46,106 bases of DNA from an uncultured bacterium (GTDB lineage Bacteria; Planctomycetota; UBA1135; GCA-002686595), in assembly GCA_938030175.1 (NCBI GenBank), contig CALHGQ010000190.1, forward strand, positions 1-46,106, written 5' to 3'. The first letter of the stretch is position 1. Each line of letters opens with the position of its first letter. The notes beneath the pieces are model-generated. The model did no database searches and was not told where the DNA came from. It saw only the letters and a list, made by a program, of their open reading frames with translations. Positions 11,391 through 31,342 of the stretch are shown piece after piece. The translations under genes were made by a program, and so were the position numbers.

Positions 11391-13499
11391 ATGCTTAAAG
11401 CTCTAGCTCCCCTCGCCGGTTCCGGCGCTCTCCTGGCCGCGCTTCTCTCGACGACCTCCGCAGCGCCTGCGGTGGACCCGGTCGACGAAGGCATGTGGCT
11501 CTTTACCAACCCGCCCGCTAAGGAGCTGGCTGAGCGCTACGGCTTTGAGATGACGCCGGAGTGGCTTGAGCACGTGCAGAAGTCAGCCGTGCGCGTTTCG
11601 ACCGGCGGTTCTGGCTCGATCGTCTCGGACCAAGGCCTCGTGATGACGAACCATCACGTCGCGTCTGACGTGATCGAGAAGCTCTCCACGGCAGAGAGCA
11701 ACCTGCTGGAGAACGGCTTCCACGCCGTAGGCCTCGAGGACGAGCTGGTCTGCCCTGACGTGCACGTCGACGTCCTGTGGACGATCGAGGACGTGACCGC
11801 CAAGGTCAACGCCGCGGCGGACGGCCTCGGGACGGCCGAGGCTGGCGCGGCCAAGCGCAAAGCACTGACGGAGATCGAGGACGCGGCCAAGGCCGAGACC
11901 GGTCTGCACGCGGAAGTTGTCACGCTCTACCAGGGGGGCCAGTACCACCTGTACCAGTACAAGCGCTTCGAGGACATTCGCTTGGTCTTTGCGCCCGAGA
12001 AGTCGATCGCTTTCTACGGCGGCGACAACGACAACTTCGAGTACCCGCGCTTCTGCCTCGACGTGACGTTCCTGCGGATTTACGAGGACGGCAAGCCGTT
12101 CGTTCCGGAGCACCACCTGACCTGGAGCCAGGACGGCGTGTCCGATGGCGAGCTTGCCTTCGTGGCTGGACACCCCGGCCGCACCCAGCGCCTGAACACC
12201 GCATCGCACCTCGAGTACCTGCGCGATACGAGCGTGCCGGACTCGATGACGAGCCTGATGCGCAGCGAAGTCATGCTGCAAATCTTCTCAGGCAAGAGCG
12301 CGGAGCACCGCCGCCGTGCGGAAGGCATGCTCTTCGGTGTCCAGAACAGCCGCAAGGTCTACGTGGGGCGTCAGAGCGGCCTGCTCGACCCTGCGATCTT
12401 CGAGGCGAAGCGCGCGGAAGAGGCTCGTCTCCGGGCGGCCGTCGACGCGAACCCCGAGTGGAAAGCGGCGTACGGCGACGCATGGGACCAGATCGCCCAG
12501 GCCCAGGACGCAGCCCGTGAGATCCGCGAGCCGTACATTGCGGTGGGCGCGTCGACCGTGAGCCTCGGCGGACAAATGGGATCCATCGCGGCGACGATCG
12601 TGCGCCTGGCCGACGAGCTCCCGAAGCCGAGCGCGGAGCGTCTGCGCGAATTCGGAGACGCAGGTCTTCCGGCCCTCTACCAGGGTCTCTACTCACCAGC
12701 GCCGATCTACCAGGACTTCGAGATCATGCAGCTTGAGAGCGCGCTGATGGCCATGGCCGAGCGTCTCGGCGCCGACCATGAGTTGGTCGTCGCAGCCCTC
12801 GCCGGCAAGTCCCCCCGCGCCCGCGCGGAGGAGTGCATCCTGGGTTCGAAGCTGATGGACATCGACGAGCGCAAGCGCCTCGCCGAGGGTGGCGCCGACG
12901 CCCTGAAGGACTGCGGCGATCCGCTGATCGCGCTTGTTCAGTCCCTCGACGCACCGGCCCGCGCGCTGCGTATTCGCTACGAGAACGAAGTTCGTTCGGT
13001 GGAGAACGAGGCCTACGGCAAGATCGCTGCGGCGCGCTTCGCCGTCTTTGGCGACGGTGTCTATCCCGATGCGACGTTCACGCTGCGTCTCTCCTACGGA
13101 GCGATCAGCGGCTACACCCAGGGCGACGAGACGATTCCCCCGTTCACCGAGTTCGGCGGCGTCTTCAAGAAGGCCAGTGAGCGCGAAGGCGAAGAGTGGT
13201 ACGACCTCCCCGAGTCCTGGACGAAGGCGGCCGAGACCATGGACATGTCGACTCCGTTCAACTTCGTCTCGACCCACGACATCATCGGCGGCAACTCCGG
13301 CTCGCCCGTGATCGACGCGGAGGGCGAGGTCGTGGGTCTCATCTTCGACGGCAACATCCAGAGCCTGATCGGCAACTACGCCTACTCGGACGCTGAGGCC
13401 CGGTCTGTGTCGGTGGACAGTCGTGGGATCATGGGGTCCCTGGAACAGGTCTACGGGGCAAAGCGCATCGCGGCCGAGCTCCGCGGCTCGAAGGACTGA
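11391..13499 (+). CDS. S46 family dipeptidyl peptidase (DPP7/DPP11 type)
   Basis: ATG 11391, signal MLKALAPLAGSGALLAALLSTTSAAPA; 'DEGMWLFTNPPAKEL', 'GSGSIVSDQGLVMTNHHVA', 'GGNSGSPVIDAEGEVVGLIFDGN'. Confidence 0.93.
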   Translation: MLKALAPLAGSGALLAALLSTTSAAPAVDPVDEGMWLFTNPPAKELAERYGFEMTPEWLEHVQKSAVRVSTGGSGSIVSDQGLVMTNHHVASDVIEKLSTAESNLLENGFHAVGLEDELVCPDVHVDVLWTIEDVTAKVNAAADGLGTAEAGAAKRKALTEIEDAAKAETGLHAEVVTLYQGGQYHLYQYKRFEDIRLVFAPEKSIAFYGGDNDNFEYPRFCLDVTFLRIYEDGKPFVPEHHLTWSQDGVSDGELAFVAGHPGRTQRLNTASHLEYLRDTSVPDSMTSLMRSEVMLQIFSGKSAEHRRRAEGMLFGVQNSRKVYVGRQSGLLDPAIFEAKRAEEARLRAAVDANPEWKAAYGDAWDQIAQAQDAAREIREPYIAVGASTVSLGGQMGSIAATIVRLADELPKPSAERLREFGDAGLPALYQGLYSPAPIYQDFEIMQLESALMAMAERLGADHELVVAALAGKSPRARAEECILGSKLMDIDERKRLAEGGADALKDCGDPLIALVQSLDAPARALRIRYENEVRSVENEAYGKIAAARFAVFGDGVYPDATFTLRLSYGAISGYTQGDETIPPFTEFGGVFKKASEREGEEWYDLPESWTKAAETMDMSTPFNFVSTHDIIGGNSGSPVIDAEGEVVGLIFDGNIQSLIGNYAYSDAEARSVSVDSRGIMGSLEQVYGAKRIAAELRGSKD

Positions 13500-13614: not shown

Positions 13615-14406
13615 ATGCATAGACGACGATTTCTCAAGTTGACGGGGGTGTCCCTCGGGGCCGCAGGCGCGGCCCTTGGGGCCCAGGCTGAAGCAGGTTC
13701 CAAGGGCCGCGGGCAGGCGTTTCGCGAAGTCTCGGAACGAGCCGACGAACGGGGCAAGCCCCTCGTCCTGATCCCGGTCTCCGCGGCTGGGTCCGACGTG
13801 GACGAGCTTCAGCGGGTCTGGGGCGAGTTGTTCTCGACCGTCAACGACGAGCATCTTGGCCTGTTGGCCCTGTTCGAATTCGTCTTTGCGGAGACGCCCA
13901 GCGGGGCCGAGTTCCAGGCCGAGGCTCACTGTGCGATCGTCCGGATCTCGTCGAGTCAGGGGTGGCGACCGATTCCGTGGGCGAAGGGCGAAGAGCTCAC
14001 CGCGGAGAGGCTCTTTCACTCGCTCCGCGAGACGCTCGTCGCCACCCCAGACCAGCAGTCGGATTTGGTTCAACGGCTCTACCGCGGGAGAGCGGGCTAC
14101 GGGCGAATGATGCGCATCGGGAACGCAGGGCCCCAGACGGCACCGCGCCTCAAGATCTCCGAGGCAGACGCTGGCGCCGCGTTGCTGTACCACGGGATCC
14201 AGAACTCATCGGACGACGCCTACAAGAGCTGGGCGAGCGGGCTCTTGGCATCGGCCGCCGCCCTGCGTCTCTACGAGAACAACCCCGTGGGGGCCCACTG
14301 GGCTGATCACTACCCCGAGGTTGACCCCTGCCCACCGTGTGGAATGGCCGTGGTCATGCCCACGTCGAGGCTCTTCCTCGACGCGTATACCGCCGAGGGT
14401 CGCTAG
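13615..14406 (+). CDS. Tat-signal exported protein with C-terminal CPPCGM motif; putative MNIO substrate
   Basis: ATG 13615, MHRRRFLKLTGVSLGAAGAALGAQAEA (twin-arginine signal). C-terminal '...HYPEVDPCPPCGMAVVMPTSRLFLDAYTAEGR*'; 9 bp upstream of the DUF692 gene. Confidence 0.8.
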   Translation: MHRRRFLKLTGVSLGAAGAALGAQAEAGSKGRGQAFREVSERADERGKPLVLIPVSAAGSDVDELQRVWGELFSTVNDEHLGLLALFEFVFAETPSGAEFQAEAHCAIVRISSSQGWRPIPWAKGEELTAERLFHSLRETLVATPDQQSDLVQRLYRGRAGYGRMMRIGNAGPQTAPRLKISEADAGAALLYHGIQNSSDDAYKSWASGLLASAAALRLYENNPVGAHWADHYPEVDPCPPCGMAVVMPTSRLFLDAYTAEGR

Positions 14407-14415
14407 CCGGTCGCG

Positions 14416-15321
14416 ATGGGCGTCGCCGTTGGTTTTTCGCTCCAGCCGGACGAGGCGTTCCTCGAGCTGTTAGATCCTGTGCTCCGCACAGAGCCGGACT
14501 ACTTCGAGATCGCGCCCGAGACCACGTGGCGTGGCCGCCTCGGGGATGGCGAGGAGGGCCCGTTCGCGTCGAACGGATTCGCGGACCGCTTCCACCGATT
14601 AGGCCAAGAGCTCTCGAAGCCGTTCGTGGCCCACGGCGTGGGTCTTTCGATCGGAACCCGCGAGCCCGATCCCGTGCGAAGGCGACGCTGGCTAGATTCG
14701 ATTCGTCGCGACCAGGCGCGGTTCCAGTACGAGTGGTACACGGACCACCTCGGAGCGAGCGTGCTCGACGGGATCGAGGTCACCATGCCCATGGCGGTTC
14801 CGCAGACGGAAGAAGCGGCTCGGGCAGTGCGCGCCTCGCTAGAGCAGCTGCGCGCCCACGTTCCCGACGTGGGCTTCGAGAACACCGCGTTTCTTTACTT
14901 CCTCGGGGATCCGTTGAAGGAACCCGCCTGGATCTCAAGCTGCCTGACGGGCCCGCGGACGCACCTGCTGCTCGATGTGCACAACCTCTACGCGAACGCG
15001 CTCAACGCCGGCTTCGATCCGTACGAATACCTGGATCTCCTTCCGCTTGATCGCGTGATCGAAGCCCACGTTTCCGGTGGTAGCTGGTCGGAGGACAAAT
15101 GGCTTGCCTCGGGCATGCAGCTGCGTCTTGACAGCCATGACGGTGCTGTCCCTGAGGAGGCTTGGAAGCTCTTGGAGACCGCGTTGCCGCGCTGTTCCTC
15201 CCTGCGCGGTGTGACGCTGGAACGCATGTATGGAACCGTCGAGCCCGGCGATGTGGCCATCCTGCGCGAGGAGCTGACTCGCCTACGCGCGACGCTGGGG
15301 AGGCGCCATGTCGGGCGATAG
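14416..15321 (+). CDS. DUF692 / multinuclear non-heme iron-dependent oxidative enzyme (MNIO; MbnB/TglH-like family)
   Basis: 'PDYFEIAPETTW', 'VAHGVGLSIGTREP', 'GFENTAF', 'LLLDVHNLYANALNAGFDPYEYLDLLPLDRVIEAHVSGGSW', 'DSHDGAVPEEAWKLL', 'VTLERMYG' match the DUF692 motif series. Confidence 0.93.
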   Translation: MGVAVGFSLQPDEAFLELLDPVLRTEPDYFEIAPETTWRGRLGDGEEGPFASNGFADRFHRLGQELSKPFVAHGVGLSIGTREPDPVRRRRWLDSIRRDQARFQYEWYTDHLGASVLDGIEVTMPMAVPQTEEAARAVRASLEQLRAHVPDVGFENTAFLYFLGDPLKEPAWISSCLTGPRTHLLLDVHNLYANALNAGFDPYEYLDLLPLDRVIEAHVSGGSWSEDKWLASGMQLRLDSHDGAVPEEAWKLLETALPRCSSLRGVTLERMYGTVEPGDVAILREELTRLRATLGRRHVGR

Positions 15322-15658
15322 CTCCCGCCGCAAGGGTCTCGGGAACGCGCACTGGGAATCCCTGCTCGCGGATGCGCTTCTCGACTCCGACCCCGCCTCA
15401 GCGCTTCAGGCTGCGGGCGGCTTGGAAGCGGTGGACCATGACGGACTTCGCATGGCGGCTCTCCTGGTGGTCAAGCTCCGATTCGAACGCTTAATTGCCG
15501 GCTCGTCACGCGCGGCGTCGCTGTTCGAAGAGGACCCCGGTGGCTTCGCCGCCCTATTTCGTCGCTACCATGCGGACGTCAAGCCGACGTCGCCGATGCC
15601 CCAGGACGAGCAGCGCCTGTTCGAAGCCTGGTTGTCCGGTGACAAGCACTCGGAGTGA
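15308..15658 (+). CDS. Short MNIO partner protein, DUF2063/HvfC-like
   Basis: Overlaps the MNIO gene by 14 bp; 'LRMAALLVVKLRFERLIAGSSRAASLFEEDPGGFAALFRRYHADVKPTSP...EQRLFEAWL' resembles the N-terminal DUF2063 pattern. Confidence 0.6.
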   Translation: MSGDSSRRKGLGNAHWESLLADALLDSDPASALQAAGGLEAVDHDGLRMAALLVVKLRFERLIAGSSRAASLFEEDPGGFAALFRRYHADVKPTSPMPQDEQRLFEAWLSGDKHSE

Positions 15659-19204: not shown

Positions 19205-20098
19205 TCAGGTTTGGAACCGCCCGAAACCGTCTCGATGCAGGTCGACGACGAGTTCCTGCACGAGTGCATGATCCGGCCGCTCCGGAAGGGTGGATGAGCG
19301 CATGAGCTCGGGGAGCTGTGCGCTGCGGCGCTCCGCTTCCTCCACGACCTTCTCGAAGCTCCACTCGCCCTGTCGAAGGGCCAGGAGTTCCTCTGCGTCA
19401 GGTCGTTGCACGAGGACCTGACCCTCCGCGAGAATCTCGTGCCCCATGCGGAGGAGGCGGATCAGGTGCACCGCGTGCTTGGTGTCGTAGCCGTGGTCGG
19501 CCTCGAGCTTGGCCCTGGCCTCGTTGCGCTCCTTGCGCCAGGTGACGAAGTGGTTCCAGTGTTTCTGGGCGGCGTCGAAGGCCTTGCGTCGGCGCGGGTC
19601 CAGGAACTTGATCTGCCCGCGGACCACCTCGGCTCCGTACTCCATCGGGTCCGGGGCGGACGTAGGTGGGTTGGTGAGCCACTTGCGGTGACGCTCCAAC
19701 CTGCCCATCTGCGACCGCGCGTAGCCGCCGAAGCGTTCCCCTGCGAGCCGGGACATAAAGAGGCTCCTCGCGGAACGAAGGCGCTCACCCAGCTCATCCA
19801 AGTGCAGTACATGCTCGGTCGGCGTGAACAGGGTCTCGATGATATTGGGGTTCCCCTGGAGCGCCAGGCGCGCGAACTTCGCGAGGGAGTAGGTCACGTG
19901 GTCCTTGAACTCAGACTCGTGCTGCTCGAACTCGTCCAGACCGAGAAGGAAGCGCTCGGGCAGGACGCAGACGCCCCGGGAATCCTCATCGCTGTTGTCG
20001 AGGGAAATGCCGTAAGCCCGGGACCCCGTACGCACCCTAAGGATGAGGCCGGTCTCCCAGAACGCGTCTGCGTCGGAGGTCAATGGTTCGTTGGACAT
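19205..20098 (-). CDS. Predicted nucleotidyltransferase, DNA polymerase beta superfamily (COG3541-like)
   Basis: 'GSRAYGISLDNSDEDSRGVCVLP' is the GSxxYG...SDxDxxG nucleotidyltransferase signature. Confidence 0.85.
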   Translation of the reverse strand: MSNEPLTSDADAFWETGLILRVRTGSRAYGISLDNSDEDSRGVCVLPERFLLGLDEFEQHESEFKDHVTYSLAKFARLALQGNPNIIETLFTPTEHVLHLDELGERLRSARSLFMSRLAGERFGGYARSQMGRLERHRKWLTNPPTSAPDPMEYGAEVVRGQIKFLDPRRRKAFDAAQKHWNHFVTWRKERNEARAKLEADHGYDTKHAVHLIRLLRMGHEILAEGQVLVQRPDAEELLALRQGEWSFEKVVEEAERRSAQLPELMRSSTLPERPDHALVQELVVDLHRDGFGRFQT

Positions 20099-26182: not shown

Positions 26183-29100
26183 ATGTCTGCCTCACTCCCG
26201 GGGAGTCACGACTCCGACCCCATCGACGCGCTCGTCAGCCACGTGTGCGATCAGCTCATGGAGCCGCTTGAGCTTGAGCCGAGTAGTCTCGGGCGTTCGG
26301 TCTTTGCGCGCAAGCTGCGGGAAGCGATCCTGAACCCAGGCCTGAGCGGCGCGGAGCAAGACATCGTCGACGGGCTCTCGAACGTGAGCCAGCCAGGGGA
26401 CATGGATCGCATCCTGACGGCGCGCATCAAGCGGGCTTTGATCACGGCCTGCGAAGCGACCGGCCTCGACTCCAATGAGCTCGCGAACCGCTTCGCTCGC
26501 AACGTCGTGGTCGCACGGGGCGACGGAGTTCGTTCAACGATGCCCGACGACGCCGACTTGGACTCCCTTGGAACCCTCACGCTGACCCAGACCATCTCGG
26601 AGGAGTCGCTCGCCGCCGACGAGCTGCCCCACGTGTTCACCAATCGTGGCGGCAAGCTGGAGATCGAGCAGACCCAAGACGTCGACGTGGAAGACAAGTC
26701 GTCTCGACTGACGGACTCTTCCGCCCCGGTGGACCCGTCGCGCCCGAGCGCCACGATTTCCGCCGGTGGCTCCGAAGCCTCGGTTCCGGTCTTCGAGATG
26801 ACCGGCGCCCTTGAGGCACTCGAAGAGCACGTCCTCGAAGCGGCCCCCGTCGAAGCGAAGGCCAAGCTCGAGTCCCTCGCCCGCGGCGACGACCTGATCG
26901 ACAAGACGCTCAACGGCAAGTACCTGATCACGGGCCGACTCGGCAAGGGCGGCTTCGGCACCGTGTACCAGGCGATCGACCTCGGTTTCGCTGAGGAGCT
27001 CGGCGAGTCCAGCGGCGCCAAGGTGGCGATCAAGGTCCTGAACTCGAACATTCAGGGCAGCAAGAAGGCGATCAAGAGCTTCCTGGCGGAGGCGAACCGG
27101 CTCACGCTCCTGAGCCATCCGAACATCGTCCAGTGGATGACGTTCGACAAGACAGCCGAGGGCATCCACTACTTCGTTATGGAGTTCCTGGAGGGCCGCG
27201 AGCTGGCGGACATTCTCAAGGAGGAGAAGCAGCTTCACCCGATGCGCGTCGGCAAGATCATGCTCGACGTGCTTGCGGCGCTGCAGTGTGCCCACGAAGT
27301 CCCCGACGGGCGCGCGCTCCTGCACCTCGACCTCAAGCCCCAGAACGTCTTCATGCTCGGCGCCGCCGAGCGCGGGGCCGAAACGGCGAAGGTCATCGAC
27401 TTCGGCATCGGCCAGAACGTCAGCAATGAATTTGCGGACGTCGGACAGACCGTCGCCGAGGACACGGTGCAGGGCGAGGAACTCCTGGAGCGGACGATCT
27501 TCCCAGCGCCGCGCGGCGGGCTGTCTGAGTCGGGCACCGGCGACGCGACGCTCCCCGAGGCAGGACGTTCGCGCCCGCAGGAGTCGGAGGCGGCGACCGG
27601 GAGCCGCTTGGGCACGAGCGGCGAGGGCAAGGTCCGGCGCGCGAAGGGCGGCACCGTTCTCTATTCTTCCCCAGAGCAGTGCAAGCACCTGCGCAAGGAC
27701 AGCGACATCGAGAACCTCGACGGCCGCTCTGACATCTATTCCCTCGGGGTCGTGGGCTTCAAGGCGCTCACGGGAACCTATCCGTTCGCCAAGAAGGCGA
27801 CGTCGCTCAAGGAGGCCTACCGGCAGCACCTGGCGGAGCCCCCTCGCAAGGTGCGCGACGTCCGGCCCAAGGTGCCGCGGCGCCTCGCGGGCGTCGTCGA
27901 TCGGTGCTTGGAAAAAGACAAGGAGCGGCGTTTCCAATCGGCGGCGGAGGCCCGGGAAGCGCTAGAGCGCGCAATGCAGCCGCTCGTTTCGAAGTCGTTC
28001 CTGATTGCGGCCCCGGTGATGCTTCTGCCCCTGATCGCCCTGGCGCTCTACGCGGTGTTCAAGGCGCCGGACTACGACCAGATCAACTACGTTGAGATCG
28101 AGAGGGTGGCCGCGTCAGAGGACTTCTCCGGGGCCGCCGGAACGGCGACTCGAACGGACTCCCTCGGCGGATTCGCAGGTGGCCAAGCGCTACACCTCGC
28201 GCTCGACAACCTCGGCAGCACCGCCGCGCTTGGATTCGGTGGCAAGGAGGCGCCGAAGGGAACGCCCGAGCTCTTCCGCGGCGAGGGCCCCGATGACCCG
28301 GACGCCAAGCCCCTGGGGGATGTCATTCTCAAGGAGATGGATGGGCGCTTCGTCTTCCATGTCCTGGGGTCAGAGCCGCTGCCCCGGACGGACGTCTTTG
28401 TGCGTTGGTCCAGCGCCCTGCAGGCCACGCCGCCCTTTCGGCTGACGACGACGGCCGCGCTCCCGCGCGTGCCGGTCGAGTTCAAGCTCAAGAGTCCTGA
28501 GGGTGACGAGATCAAGCTCGACAGGGGCGAGAACCTGCTCCTTTGGGCGGATACCAGCCACTCCATCGAGGCCGAGGTGTACGGGGACCTCTCGCGCATC
28601 GCCATGGTCGGCTTCCTCGACCACGAGACGGGCGAGCGGCTGCAGCTCGCGCCCCTCTTGGCCAAGGACAAAGCAACGGTCACACTGCGCCCCAAGACGC
28701 TCCCCATGGAAGCCGCCGAGCAGGGCGTCGCGGAACGCGAGCTCCAGGTGATCATTGAAGATCGTGCTGGCCGAATCGTCCAGATGGGCGCGTCCCTGCC
28801 CGTGGCTTTCACAAAAGCCGCGTCGACGATCGAGATGGACTCCATCGAGCTCATTCGCGTCGAGAACGGTGCATCGGAGGGGCTCGCCCCCGTTCCGCTT
28901 GGGACCAGGCGAAACCAGCGGGTGCCATTGACCGGCGAAGTCGACCGCATTCAGGTGTCGGGGCGACTGTGCGAATGGGCTAACGAGCGCTCCGTGGAAG
29001 TGGAGTTCACGGGTCTTGGCAAGCCGCAGTCGGCGAAGGTGACGGACGGACGCTTCTCATTCTCTGTGCCCTACAGTGAACTCGGTGGCGGCGAGGGGGC

Positions 29101-31342
29101 TGACGGAGCACGGGGGGTCACGGGCAAGAGCTTCGTCCTCGGGCTCGAAGTGCTCGATGCGGGGGTGCTGCCCAAGGGAGAGGGCGTCGGCGCTCGCTGG
29201 ACGAGCACGGTGAACTTCTTCCGCGTCGGCGACGCGGTGGCGATCTCGTTGGAGGGGCCCCGCGGCCAGTCGCAGCCCTTGCCCCTGCAGGCTGCTGCCT
29301 ACGTGATGGGCGGACGAACGACCCTGAAGATCTCGGAGTCGCATCCTAGCTCGCACTTTGGCCTCTACCGCATCACGGAGGAGTTCCCATCCGGTGTTCT
29401 GGAGGGCGCCGTTTTTGGCGCGGCGCCAGACCGTCGCATCGTCTTCGACGTGGACTCCGATCTCCGCGGCGAGCTGACCTACGAGTTGCGCCAGTTCGAG
29501 AGCAACAGCCTCGGGCCCAAGGCGGCCCAAGGGGGCCTCGAAGAGTCGAAGCTATCAGAAATCCTGAGCGGGCCGGATTGCCCGACGCCGATCGTGACCT
29601 CGAAGCTGGCGGTGAACGTGGTGGCCGATGTTGCGGTCGATGATTGCCGCTTCGACGTGACCCAAAGCGTCCGGATCGATCAAGCCAAAGTGACGGAGGA
29701 GCTGCTTCCAAAGCTCGTCGTTCGGCTGGCCGAGCCGGAGTCTCTGCACTGCATCAAGGTCCGGTTGCGGAGGAACGATCAGTACGCCGAGACCGCAGTG
29801 TTGAAGCTGAACGAGCTTGAGGGCGAGAGTCGCGACGGCGCATGGATCCTGTCCCCCGACCTTTGGGCCGGGATCATGCTCAAGAATGCCCAGTGGGAAG
29901 ACGGGCGCTACGAAGTGCTCGTGACGCTGGAAGACAAGGCGGGCAACCAGTCTGTCCGGGAGGCAGGAGCCTTCTCCGTCGCGGCGCAGCACCCGGTGCT
30001 CGACAACCTCAAGGTGTCCGCAGAGGGGTTCGAGGTGGTGACAGCGAGCTGTCGACTGTTAGACGCCAACGGAATCGCTTGGCCTCCGTCAGCGACCTTG
30101 GTGGTCGACGGGGAAGATCAGCCGATGCCGCTGGTCTCCGAGGCACCGGACGGAGCTTCGGTCCAGGACGCCCAGGTTGAGTTCGCGCTGCCGCTCGATC
30201 GCAGCTGGTCGCGCAAGTCCGTCAAGGTGCTGGTCGCCGTGGCGAAAGCGGACGACCAGACGATGGTGACGGAGCGCGAGGTCATTCTGAACATCGGTCG
30301 AGTTCGGCCCGCCATGTTGGCGACCTTGCCCGCCGGAGAGGAGCTCAAGGGCAGCACCATGCGCCTGATTCGCGGACCCAGCTCGTCCGAGAACTACGTG
30401 TTCGCGGAGGGCGGGACGGGGCCCACGGGGGAGCTCCTCGCGAAGATGCGCGCGACGGGGGTGCCCTACCTCGTGGACGACCGGCCTTACCGCGACTACC
30501 TCGACGAACAGGCGACGTTCTTCCGCACCGAGAAGAGCATCCAGATCCATCCAGACGAGCTGCTCGACTACTACCTCGACGAGACCGAAGTGACCCAGGC
30601 GCAGTTCCTGGAGTTTGTCGAGGCCAACGACGGGTACCGCGAGATTCAGAATTGGCCGTTCCTGTCGAGCATCGCGGACTCACCGACCGCGAAGAAGATC
30701 CAGTCGCGCAGGACCCAGTGGCTGAGCTTGCGCCAGGCGACCGAGCGCGACAAGACGCCCGTGACGGGGGTGCTCTGGGAAGAGGCCATGGCCTACGCCC
30801 AATGGGCCGGCAAGCGTTTGCCCACGCTCCTTGAATGGGAGTACGCCGTGCGCGGCGAAGGGGGACGGATCTTCGCGAGTGAGCCGAGCGACCAGCCGGA
30901 TGCTGCGCGCGCTTACCTCACTCAGGCAGGTGAATTTGCTGAGGTCGATGACCCCGCGTACCGTTCGCCCGAAGGCCTCTATCATCTCGGCGGCAACGTG
31001 GCCGAGTGGACCCAGACGCCGTACTGGACGTCGCAGCCGATGCTTCCCTTCAAGTCGGACAGCGCCGCATTTTGCGCCCAACATGTTAACGGCGGCGTCA
31101 CGATCGAAGATCTTCTGAAGATGTTCTCACCAGAGCGCGGCGGAATTTACGGCACCGGCGGTCCGCTCTTCTTTGTCGCGGGCGCAGGTTGGGCCCCTGG
31201 GGGCGGCAAATGGAAGGGATACAAACTGGTCATGCCTCCGCACGACTACCGCGTCGTTGATCGTCTCCAACTGAGAGAGTCTTGGCAGCTCGCGCCATCC
31301 GCGCCCAGAGTGGGATTTCGCTGCGCGAAGTCCTCACACTGA
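26183..31342 (+). CDS. Giant Ser/Thr kinase - TM - Ig-like-like extracytoplasmic region - FGE-sulfatase (SUMF1-like) domain
   Basis: Kinase 'LGKGGFGTVYQA', 'VAIKVL', 'LLHLDLKPQNVFM', 'VIDFGIGQ', 'GGTVLYSSPEQ'; TM 'FLIAAPVMLLPLIALALYAVF'; C-terminal 'YYLDETEVTQAQFLEF', 'PVTGVLWEEAMAYAQWAGKRLPTLLEWEYAVRG', 'GLYHLGGNVAEWTQ', 'RVGFRCA'. Confidence 0.92.
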   Translation: MSASLPGSHDSDPIDALVSHVCDQLMEPLELEPSSLGRSVFARKLREAILNPGLSGAEQDIVDGLSNVSQPGDMDRILTARIKRALITACEATGLDSNELANRFARNVVVARGDGVRSTMPDDADLDSLGTLTLTQTISEESLAADELPHVFTNRGGKLEIEQTQDVDVEDKSSRLTDSSAPVDPSRPSATISAGGSEASVPVFEMTGALEALEEHVLEAAPVEAKAKLESLARGDDLIDKTLNGKYLITGRLGKGGFGTVYQAIDLGFAEELGESSGAKVAIKVLNSNIQGSKKAIKSFLAEANRLTLLSHPNIVQWMTFDKTAEGIHYFVMEFLEGRELADILKEEKQLHPMRVGKIMLDVLAALQCAHEVPDGRALLHLDLKPQNVFMLGAAERGAETAKVIDFGIGQNVSNEFADVGQTVAEDTVQGEELLERTIFPAPRGGLSESGTGDATLPEAGRSRPQESEAATGSRLGTSGEGKVRRAKGGTVLYSSPEQCKHLRKDSDIENLDGRSDIYSLGVVGFKALTGTYPFAKKATSLKEAYRQHLAEPPRKVRDVRPKVPRRLAGVVDRCLEKDKERRFQSAAEAREALERAMQPLVSKSFLIAAPVMLLPLIALALYAVFKAPDYDQINYVEIERVAASEDFSGAAGTATRTDSLGGFAGGQALHLALDNLGSTAALGFGGKEAPKGTPELFRGEGPDDPDAKPLGDVILKEMDGRFVFHVLGSEPLPRTDVFVRWSSALQATPPFRLTTTAALPRVPVEFKLKSPEGDEIKLDRGENLLLWADTSHSIEAEVYGDLSRIAMVGFLDHETGERLQLAPLLAKDKATVTLRPKTLPMEAAEQGVAERELQVIIEDRAGRIVQMGASLPVAFTKAASTIEMDSIELIRVENGASEGLAPVPLGTRRNQRVPLTGEVDRIQVSGRLCEWANERSVEVEFTGLGKPQSAKVTDGRFSFSVPYSELGGGEGADGARGVTGKSFVLGLEVLDAGVLPKGEGVGARWTSTVNFFRVGDAVAISLEGPRGQSQPLPLQAAAYVMGGRTTLKISESHPSSHFGLYRITEEFPSGVLEGAVFGAAPDRRIVFDVDSDLRGELTYELRQFESNSLGPKAAQGGLEESKLSEILSGPDCPTPIVTSKLAVNVVADVAVDDCRFDVTQSVRIDQAKVTEELLPKLVVRLAEPESLHCIKVRLRRNDQYAETAVLKLNELEGESRDGAWILSPDLWAGIMLKNAQWEDGRYEVLVTLEDKAGNQSVREAGAFSVAAQHPVLDNLKVSAEGFEVVTASCRLLDANGIAWPPSATLVVDGEDQPMPLVSEAPDGASVQDAQVEFALPLDRSWSRKSVKVLVAVAKADDQTMVTEREVILNIGRVRPAMLATLPAGEELKGSTMRLIRGPSSSENYVFAEGGTGPTGELLAKMRATGVPYLVDDRPYRDYLDEQATFFRTEKSIQIHPDELLDYYLDETEVTQAQFLEFVEANDGYREIQNWPFLSSIADSPTAKKIQSRRTQWLSLRQATERDKTPVTGVLWEEAMAYAQWAGKRLPTLLEWEYAVRGEGGRIFASEPSDQPDAARAYLTQAGEFAEVDDPAYRSPEGLYHLGGNVAEWTQTPYWTSQPMLPFKSDSAAFCAQHVNGGVTIEDLLKMFSPERGGIYGTGGPLFFVAGAGWAPGGGKWKGYKLVMPPHDYRVVDRLQLRESWQLAPSAPRVGFRCAKSSH

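Follow-up and report, generated by a model that had tools for sequence, protein, structure and literature searches.

Most of what is known about MNIOs concerns their action on peptides, as RiPP enzymes. The product that characterizes the ChrH lineage shows a mass shift of -4 or +10 Da and contains a macrocycle and a hydantoin. ChrH-type MNIOs turn the motif CPxCGxG into these two groups (PMC10214503, PMC12636315). In the precursor ChrA, mutation C66S, affecting the second Cys, abolishes activity while C63S is still partly processed, so the chemistry was proposed to begin at the second Cys (PMC10214503). Seven tail residues on GFP suffice for modification, CPPCGMG is accepted and an embedded CPACGMMM is modified (PMC12636315). 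Large MNIO substrates also have precedents (PMC12636315, PMC12452194). MelH modifies the 34-kDa secreted MelA1, provided that the separate MelHc is present. The preprint that describes this appeared in November 2025 and already set out the principle of an MNIO modifying a large exported protein at its CPxCG tail; its ChrH network includes Planctomycetota members, mentioned without detail (PMC12636315). An oxazolin MNIO needs its partner for the active mixed-valent di-iron state (PMC13419390). The main text of a broad MNIO survey makes no mention of Tat signals or Planctomycetota, and its filter for signal-bearing precursors below 200 aa would miss the substrates described here (PMC12452194).

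The window (the whole stretch of 46,106 nucleotides that was analysed, from a planctomycete MAG) contains an operon with each of these elements, tail, MNIO and partner, in homologous form. Three co-directional genes are tightly packed, with a 9 bp gap and a 14 bp overlap, at the coordinates already reported in a first-pass annotation. The first (13615..14406, + strand) encodes the putative substrate, a protein of 263 aa with a recognizable Tat twin-arginine signal (residues 1 to about 26); in the ORF translation, the N-terminus consists of the Tat motif MHRRRFLKLTG and a hydrophobic stretch. It is followed by a thioredoxin-like domain without CxxC (about 30-142), a helical domain (145-221) and a conserved tail (14290..14403, +), which comprises the G226-x-x-W229 strand, the CPPCGM loop (239-244) and the F254-L255 strand. 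The protein has cysteines at 106, 239 and 242, the codons of C239 and C242 being located at 14329-14331 and 14338-14340 (+). CPPCGM ends 19 residues from the C-terminus; the tail reads CPPCGM-AVVMPTSRLFLDAYTAEGR, that is, the motif is embedded and the precursor does not end exactly in the CPxCGxG of ChrH substrates. The second gene (14416..15321, +) encodes the MNIO (DUF692, PF05114), of 301 aa and without signal peptide, and the third (15308..15658, +) the partner, of 116 aa. The arrangement recurs in dozens of genomes and is thus far from chance. An S46 peptidase gene directly upstream (window 11391-13496, +) and a response regulator gene beside the operon are not conserved neighbours in the relatives.

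The operon resembles the MelA1/MelH/MelHc system of Melainabacteria, from the ChrH subfamily (PMC12636315), in its large secreted substrate with a CPACGM-type tail, its MNIO without C-terminal domain and its separate small helical partner, which MelH requires for activity. However, MelA1, a TPR protein, carries an ordinary secretion signal and ends exactly in CPACGMG, whereas the window protein has a Tat signal, a thioredoxin-like domain and a motif embedded at the distance given above, after which comes a conserved FL strand. The partner has 116 aa versus about 70, and the MNIO belongs to a different clade. With ChrA/ChrH (chryseobasin) and DybA/DybH (PMC10214503, PMC12636315) the operon shares the CPxCG motif, the MNIO lineage and the homologous C-terminal helical domain, and the essential second Cys of ChrA (PMC10214503) matches the universal second Cys of the window family. 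ChrA and DybA are, in contrast, small peptides ending in CPxCGxG, and those systems feature lipoprotein signals or the membrane protein ChrI. In bufferins and oxazolins (BufABC, HvfABC; PMC12452194, PMC13419390), exported precursor, MNIO and partner come in the same order and the target is likewise Cys-Gly, but they have Sec precursors with EGKCG or DUF2282, DUF2063-RRE partners, DoxX and an MNIO of another clade. TglA/TglHI pearlins and MbnABC methanobactin likewise use an MNIO of the same fold and a partner on Cys, although their precursors are small, their partners are of RRE type and no folded exported protein with a CPxCG tail is involved.

As the first-pass annotation proposed, the MNIO is intact. 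It matches PF05114 (MbnB_TglH_ChrH) with E 1e-35 and 123.8 bits (gathering cut-off 25) and keeps the metal-ligand motifs (HGVG, TDHLG, GFEN, LLLDVHN, HVSGG, RLDSHD and TLER); residues H73, H111, E155, D187, H189, N190, H218, D239, H241 and E269 are invariant across the clade. The TIM barrel predicted for a fused homologue matches TglH, MbnB and 3bww; the matched structures include 8hi7, 7fc0 and 7dz9. The curated models do not decide the lineage, since their scores are near-equal: HvfB 103 bits, ChrH 100 and BufB 98. All are below the equivalog cut-offs (360 for HvfB, 310 for BufB and, for ChrH model NF050165, 99.9 bits against 600), and no protein in 392 planctomycete genomes exceeds the cut-off of NF050165. 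The tree is what decides. It separates 41 window-type MNIOs, five ChrH-type MNIOs and L034 (47 rows) from 30 bufferin/oxazolin-type and other MNIOs with bootstrap 100 and SH-aLRT 98, the ChrH-type rows being planctomycete and myxococcal proxies with no Chryseobacterium sequence among them, so that the ChrH-lineage placement rests on proxies. The label ChrH-type denotes NF050165 scores of 200-351 bits and precursors ending in CPACGRG, CPGCGRG or CTACGRG (CPPCGRG for L034); no precursor was found for one of these rows, L143. The AU test gave p 0.51 on strict monophyly of the window clade beside the long-branched ChrH group. By its sequence, the window MNIO belongs to the ChrH lineage in the wide sense, as a separate clade. 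MbnBC and TglHI, initially taken as the nearest models, are ruled out as nearest relatives by model scores and by the tree, which puts the closest relatives at ChrH/MelH-type MNIOs. Elsewhere in the same class, L035 and L036 carry ordinary bufferin/oxazolin-like precursors (ACKGQGGCK repeats) beside other MNIOs. At L130 and L142, very Gly-Cys-rich tails (GCGGGGCGGCGG) lie directly before other MNIOs and resemble TIGR04222-type candidates.

The partner is either separate, downstream of the MNIO, or fused as its C-terminal domain in about twelve relatives, as in ChrH. The initial label of DUF2063-like had to be abandoned: no Pfam family, DUF2063 (PF09836) included, matches the sequence of the window partner or of 18 relatives; a structural likeness may still exist. 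Profile-profile comparison of these 19 partners with five small proteins or domains found at the ChrH C-terminal domain/MelHc position in ChrH-type loci gave a probability of 94%, P 1e-7 and a score of 42.9, with controls at 16.4 or less in 400 column shuffles and 19.8 for the reversed profile. On this profile evidence, the partner is a homologue of the ChrH C-terminal helical domain/MelHc. In one relative, the fused protein is predicted (pLDDT 86.5) to combine a TIM barrel with an all-helical domain, without an RRE-like sheet. PDB sequence searches with the partner and substrate profiles returned only Tat signals.

For the window substrate, AlphaFold2 with 60 rows predicts (pLDDT 78.6, pTM 0.77) an alpha/beta domain, a helical domain and the tail, where strands 227-230 and 254-257 would flank the CPPCGM loop; the loop itself is poorly determined and of low confidence. 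The best PDB matches of the model are thioredoxin folds (DsbD gamma, AGR2 and PDI b') at E 0.14 or worse, so this assignment is tentative. A viral fold library gave thioredoxins only, weakly.

Conservation concentrates in the tail. C242 and G243 are the only invariant columns in 60 substrates (18% mean column identity), an alignment from which three array members known to be without CG were left out. Columns above 90% are R3, R4, G226, W229, F254 and L255; the RR pair occurs in 90% or more of the rows, which were trimmed at RR where one was found. Among 90 distinct homologues, 82 have the CG tail, followed by M in 59, T in 11, R in 5, L in 4, I in 2 and A in 1. The other eight include three cut by contig ends or frameshifts, two whose genes are not near an MNIO of this kind and three array members that are intact but have a decayed tail. 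The spacing between the two cysteines is 3 (CPxC, as in the window) in 17 proteins, counting an entry from L076 that was moved to CPPCGM on visual inspection, and 4-54 in the rest, with a mode of 15-18 and usually a GCG context. Of the 65 proteins with this long form, 51 contain a pair of CG sites. Both forms are found together in seven arrays, where one MNIO presumably handles both. Cys242 and Cys239 are not equivalent: the former is universal, the latter is shifted in most relatives. Some relatives are reduced to little more than the tail: L090 (99 aa) has a membrane signal, a linker and DNCPACGMAV, L078 is an 81-aa frame ending in DDPCPACGRGHVPAISRRFLDAYT, and L008 has about 140 aa. All three mini-substrates keep signal and tail and have lost the thioredoxin-like domain.

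A search of 154 genomes of the class found the MNIO clade in 21, at 200 bits or more and 39-59% identity, the next match scoring 110 bits. About 40 MNIOs of the clade lie directly downstream of an exported protein, present once or in tandem up to nine times, with a C-terminal tail like that of the window protein; the partner comes next or is fused. The longest arrays have nine substrates (L097) and six (L099). Class, phylum and species-level collection searches place the clade in Planctomycetota and some Myxococcota, beyond the class of the window. Of 26 named relatives in the species-level collection, all but four are Planctomycetota (one Myxococcales, three unclassified). The distribution is patchy: the search covered eight further genomes of the window's genus, and none of them has substrate or MNIO. 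No transport, metal, DoxX or peptidase gene recurs beside the operon in 27 loci, nor does any DUF2282 or EGKCG gene in the neighbourhoods examined. Viral contigs contained no relatives and the PHROGs phage families gave no match. At L101:5661-10087 (G012:C25), on a contig other than that of the genome's MNIO operon, four CGT-type tail proteins share the identical end TRVLVDATDLD (4/4 copies), as though gene conversion had kept them uniform. At L094:5980-6060 (= L014, G009:C183), the MNIO frame starts with MACGMGHIPVGSQRYLALCDELL, matching the substrate-tail consensus CGMGxxPxxSxRFL, by chance or fusion. A tail-enzyme fusion through the N-terminal ACGMGHIPVGSQRYL of this L094 MNIO was set aside as a curiosity, for this segment aligns with the normal MNIO start.

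Substrate and MNIO co-occur. In the class, 20 genomes have both, three the substrate only, two the MNIO only and 129 neither (Fisher p 6e-20, with G149 counted as MNIO-positive on a partial match of 108 bits). In the phylum (392 genomes) the counts are 14, 2, 1 and 375 (p 1e-22); both p values are partly circular, as the substrate profile was built from MNIO neighbours. For phylum genomes outside the profile set they are 6, 2, 1 and 375 (p 5e-11). These tests treat close relatives as separate although such genomes are not independent. The two genes need not be adjacent: the MNIO-partner pair and a CPPCGM protein lie on separate contigs in G009, G012 has its extra CGT array on another contig than the MNIO, and G039 has a second CPACGM protein elsewhere in the genome. 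L172 (G307) and L178 (G343) have WCGT-tail substrate relatives, in tandem in L178; the two planctomycete genomes belong to one genus, are about 90% complete and contain no detectable MNIO. G132 likewise lacks the MNIO, and its substrate tail is without CG.

The first-pass annotation had proposed that MNIO and partner act on the Cys tail of a large exported protein, and the invariance of C242-G243, the co-operonic co-occurrence and the mini-versions argue for it. The tail CG motif and the adjacent MNIO gene do co-occur among homologues. Homologues that keep the DUF692 neighbour do not, as a family, lack the conserved C-terminal Cys, so the idea of tail modification stands. Given the conserved Cys-Gly in the tails of about 80 relatives, the MNIO very probably rewires the tail Cys of a whole exported protein. 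We think it probable that the operon represents a protein-modifying branch of the ChrH lineage, in which MNIO and partner oxidise Cys242 before Tat export. The helical partner would activate the MNIO, and the flexible CPPCGM loop of the folded 263-aa protein would enter its di-iron site in the cytoplasm, where Cys242 would be oxidised. By analogy with ChrH, DybH and MelH, Cys242-Gly243-Met244 could become a rearranged heterocycle, with a thioether-type cross-link to Cys239 in the window protein (about -4 Da). The finished folded protein would then be exported. Tat carries folded proteins, and its use would fit a modification that depends on O2 and takes place in the cytoplasm before export. 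The rest of the substrate would be a variable carrier and the tail the part that is recognised and matured.

Against this explanation stand the score below the NF050165 cut-off of 600 bits, the MNIO-less genomes G307 and G343 and the three intact array members without CG. Moreover, the first Cys is distant from the second in most relatives and residues other than Met can follow CG, hence the ChrH ring cannot be copied exactly. It could tentatively be proposed that one MNIO per operon modifies families of folded Tat-exported proteins, the oxidised Cys-Gly being linked in most of them to a Cys 15-18 (up to 54) residues away. To our knowledge, an enzymatic protein staple over 15-54 residues is not known from any MNIO. 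A product specific to this clade, in which oxidation starts at Cys242, the cross-link goes to the distant Cys (long form) or to nothing and the tail becomes a large stapled loop, is suggested by the cysteine spacings, by the single MNIO presumably serving short and long forms in seven arrays and by the position of the loop between two predicted strands. We regard it as unlikely: the window itself has ChrH-like spacing, and DybH is known to tolerate ring changes of one residue, as far as tested (PMC12636315).

There are two further readings. The motif CxxCGM resembles known copper sites, and a bufferin/oxazolin-like MNIO could make a 5-thiooxazole of Cys242, perhaps also of Cys239, giving a Cu(I)-chelating exported protein. 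EGKCG oxazolins, too, are targeted at a Cys-Gly dipeptide (PMC12452194, PMC13419390), most long forms have two CG sites, and the HvfB, ChrH and BufB models give the window MNIO equal scores. We find this doubtful, as the tree groups the clade with ChrH-type MNIOs, apart from the bufferin/oxazolin-type ones, no DoxX, DUF2282, EGKCG or metal genes recur nearby and there is no PF09836 partner. That the exported protein is an unmodified metal-site or redox partner, the MNIO acting elsewhere, would account for the array members without CG and for genomes that keep the protein without MNIO. It is nevertheless highly improbable: the tail CG alone is invariant and mini-versions drop all else, tandem arrays would be difficult to account for if the protein were a single accessory, and the ChrH-type DybH modifies a tail on GFP (PMC12636315).

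Modification of the tail by a ChrH-lineage MNIO is thus the reading we prefer. We could not find described a separate clade of this kind, Tat thioredoxin-like carriers, arrays of up to nine, an embedded motif with a closing FL strand or the wide Cys spacing (4-54 versus 3). An entire clade of MNIOs seems to be devoted to folded proteins destined for export, each enzyme having as many as nine different carriers. Since there are multiple carriers, mini-versions delimiting the tail and a natural series of Cys spacings, the minimal tag, ring size and envelope role are directly testable, and the tail suggests itself as a tag by which any chosen protein might be modified at its end. Elsewhere, the window encodes an RlaP-type nucleotidyltransferase (PF10127, an RNA repair pathway family; 19205-20098, - strand) and a very long open frame of 1719 aa (26183-31342, + strand).
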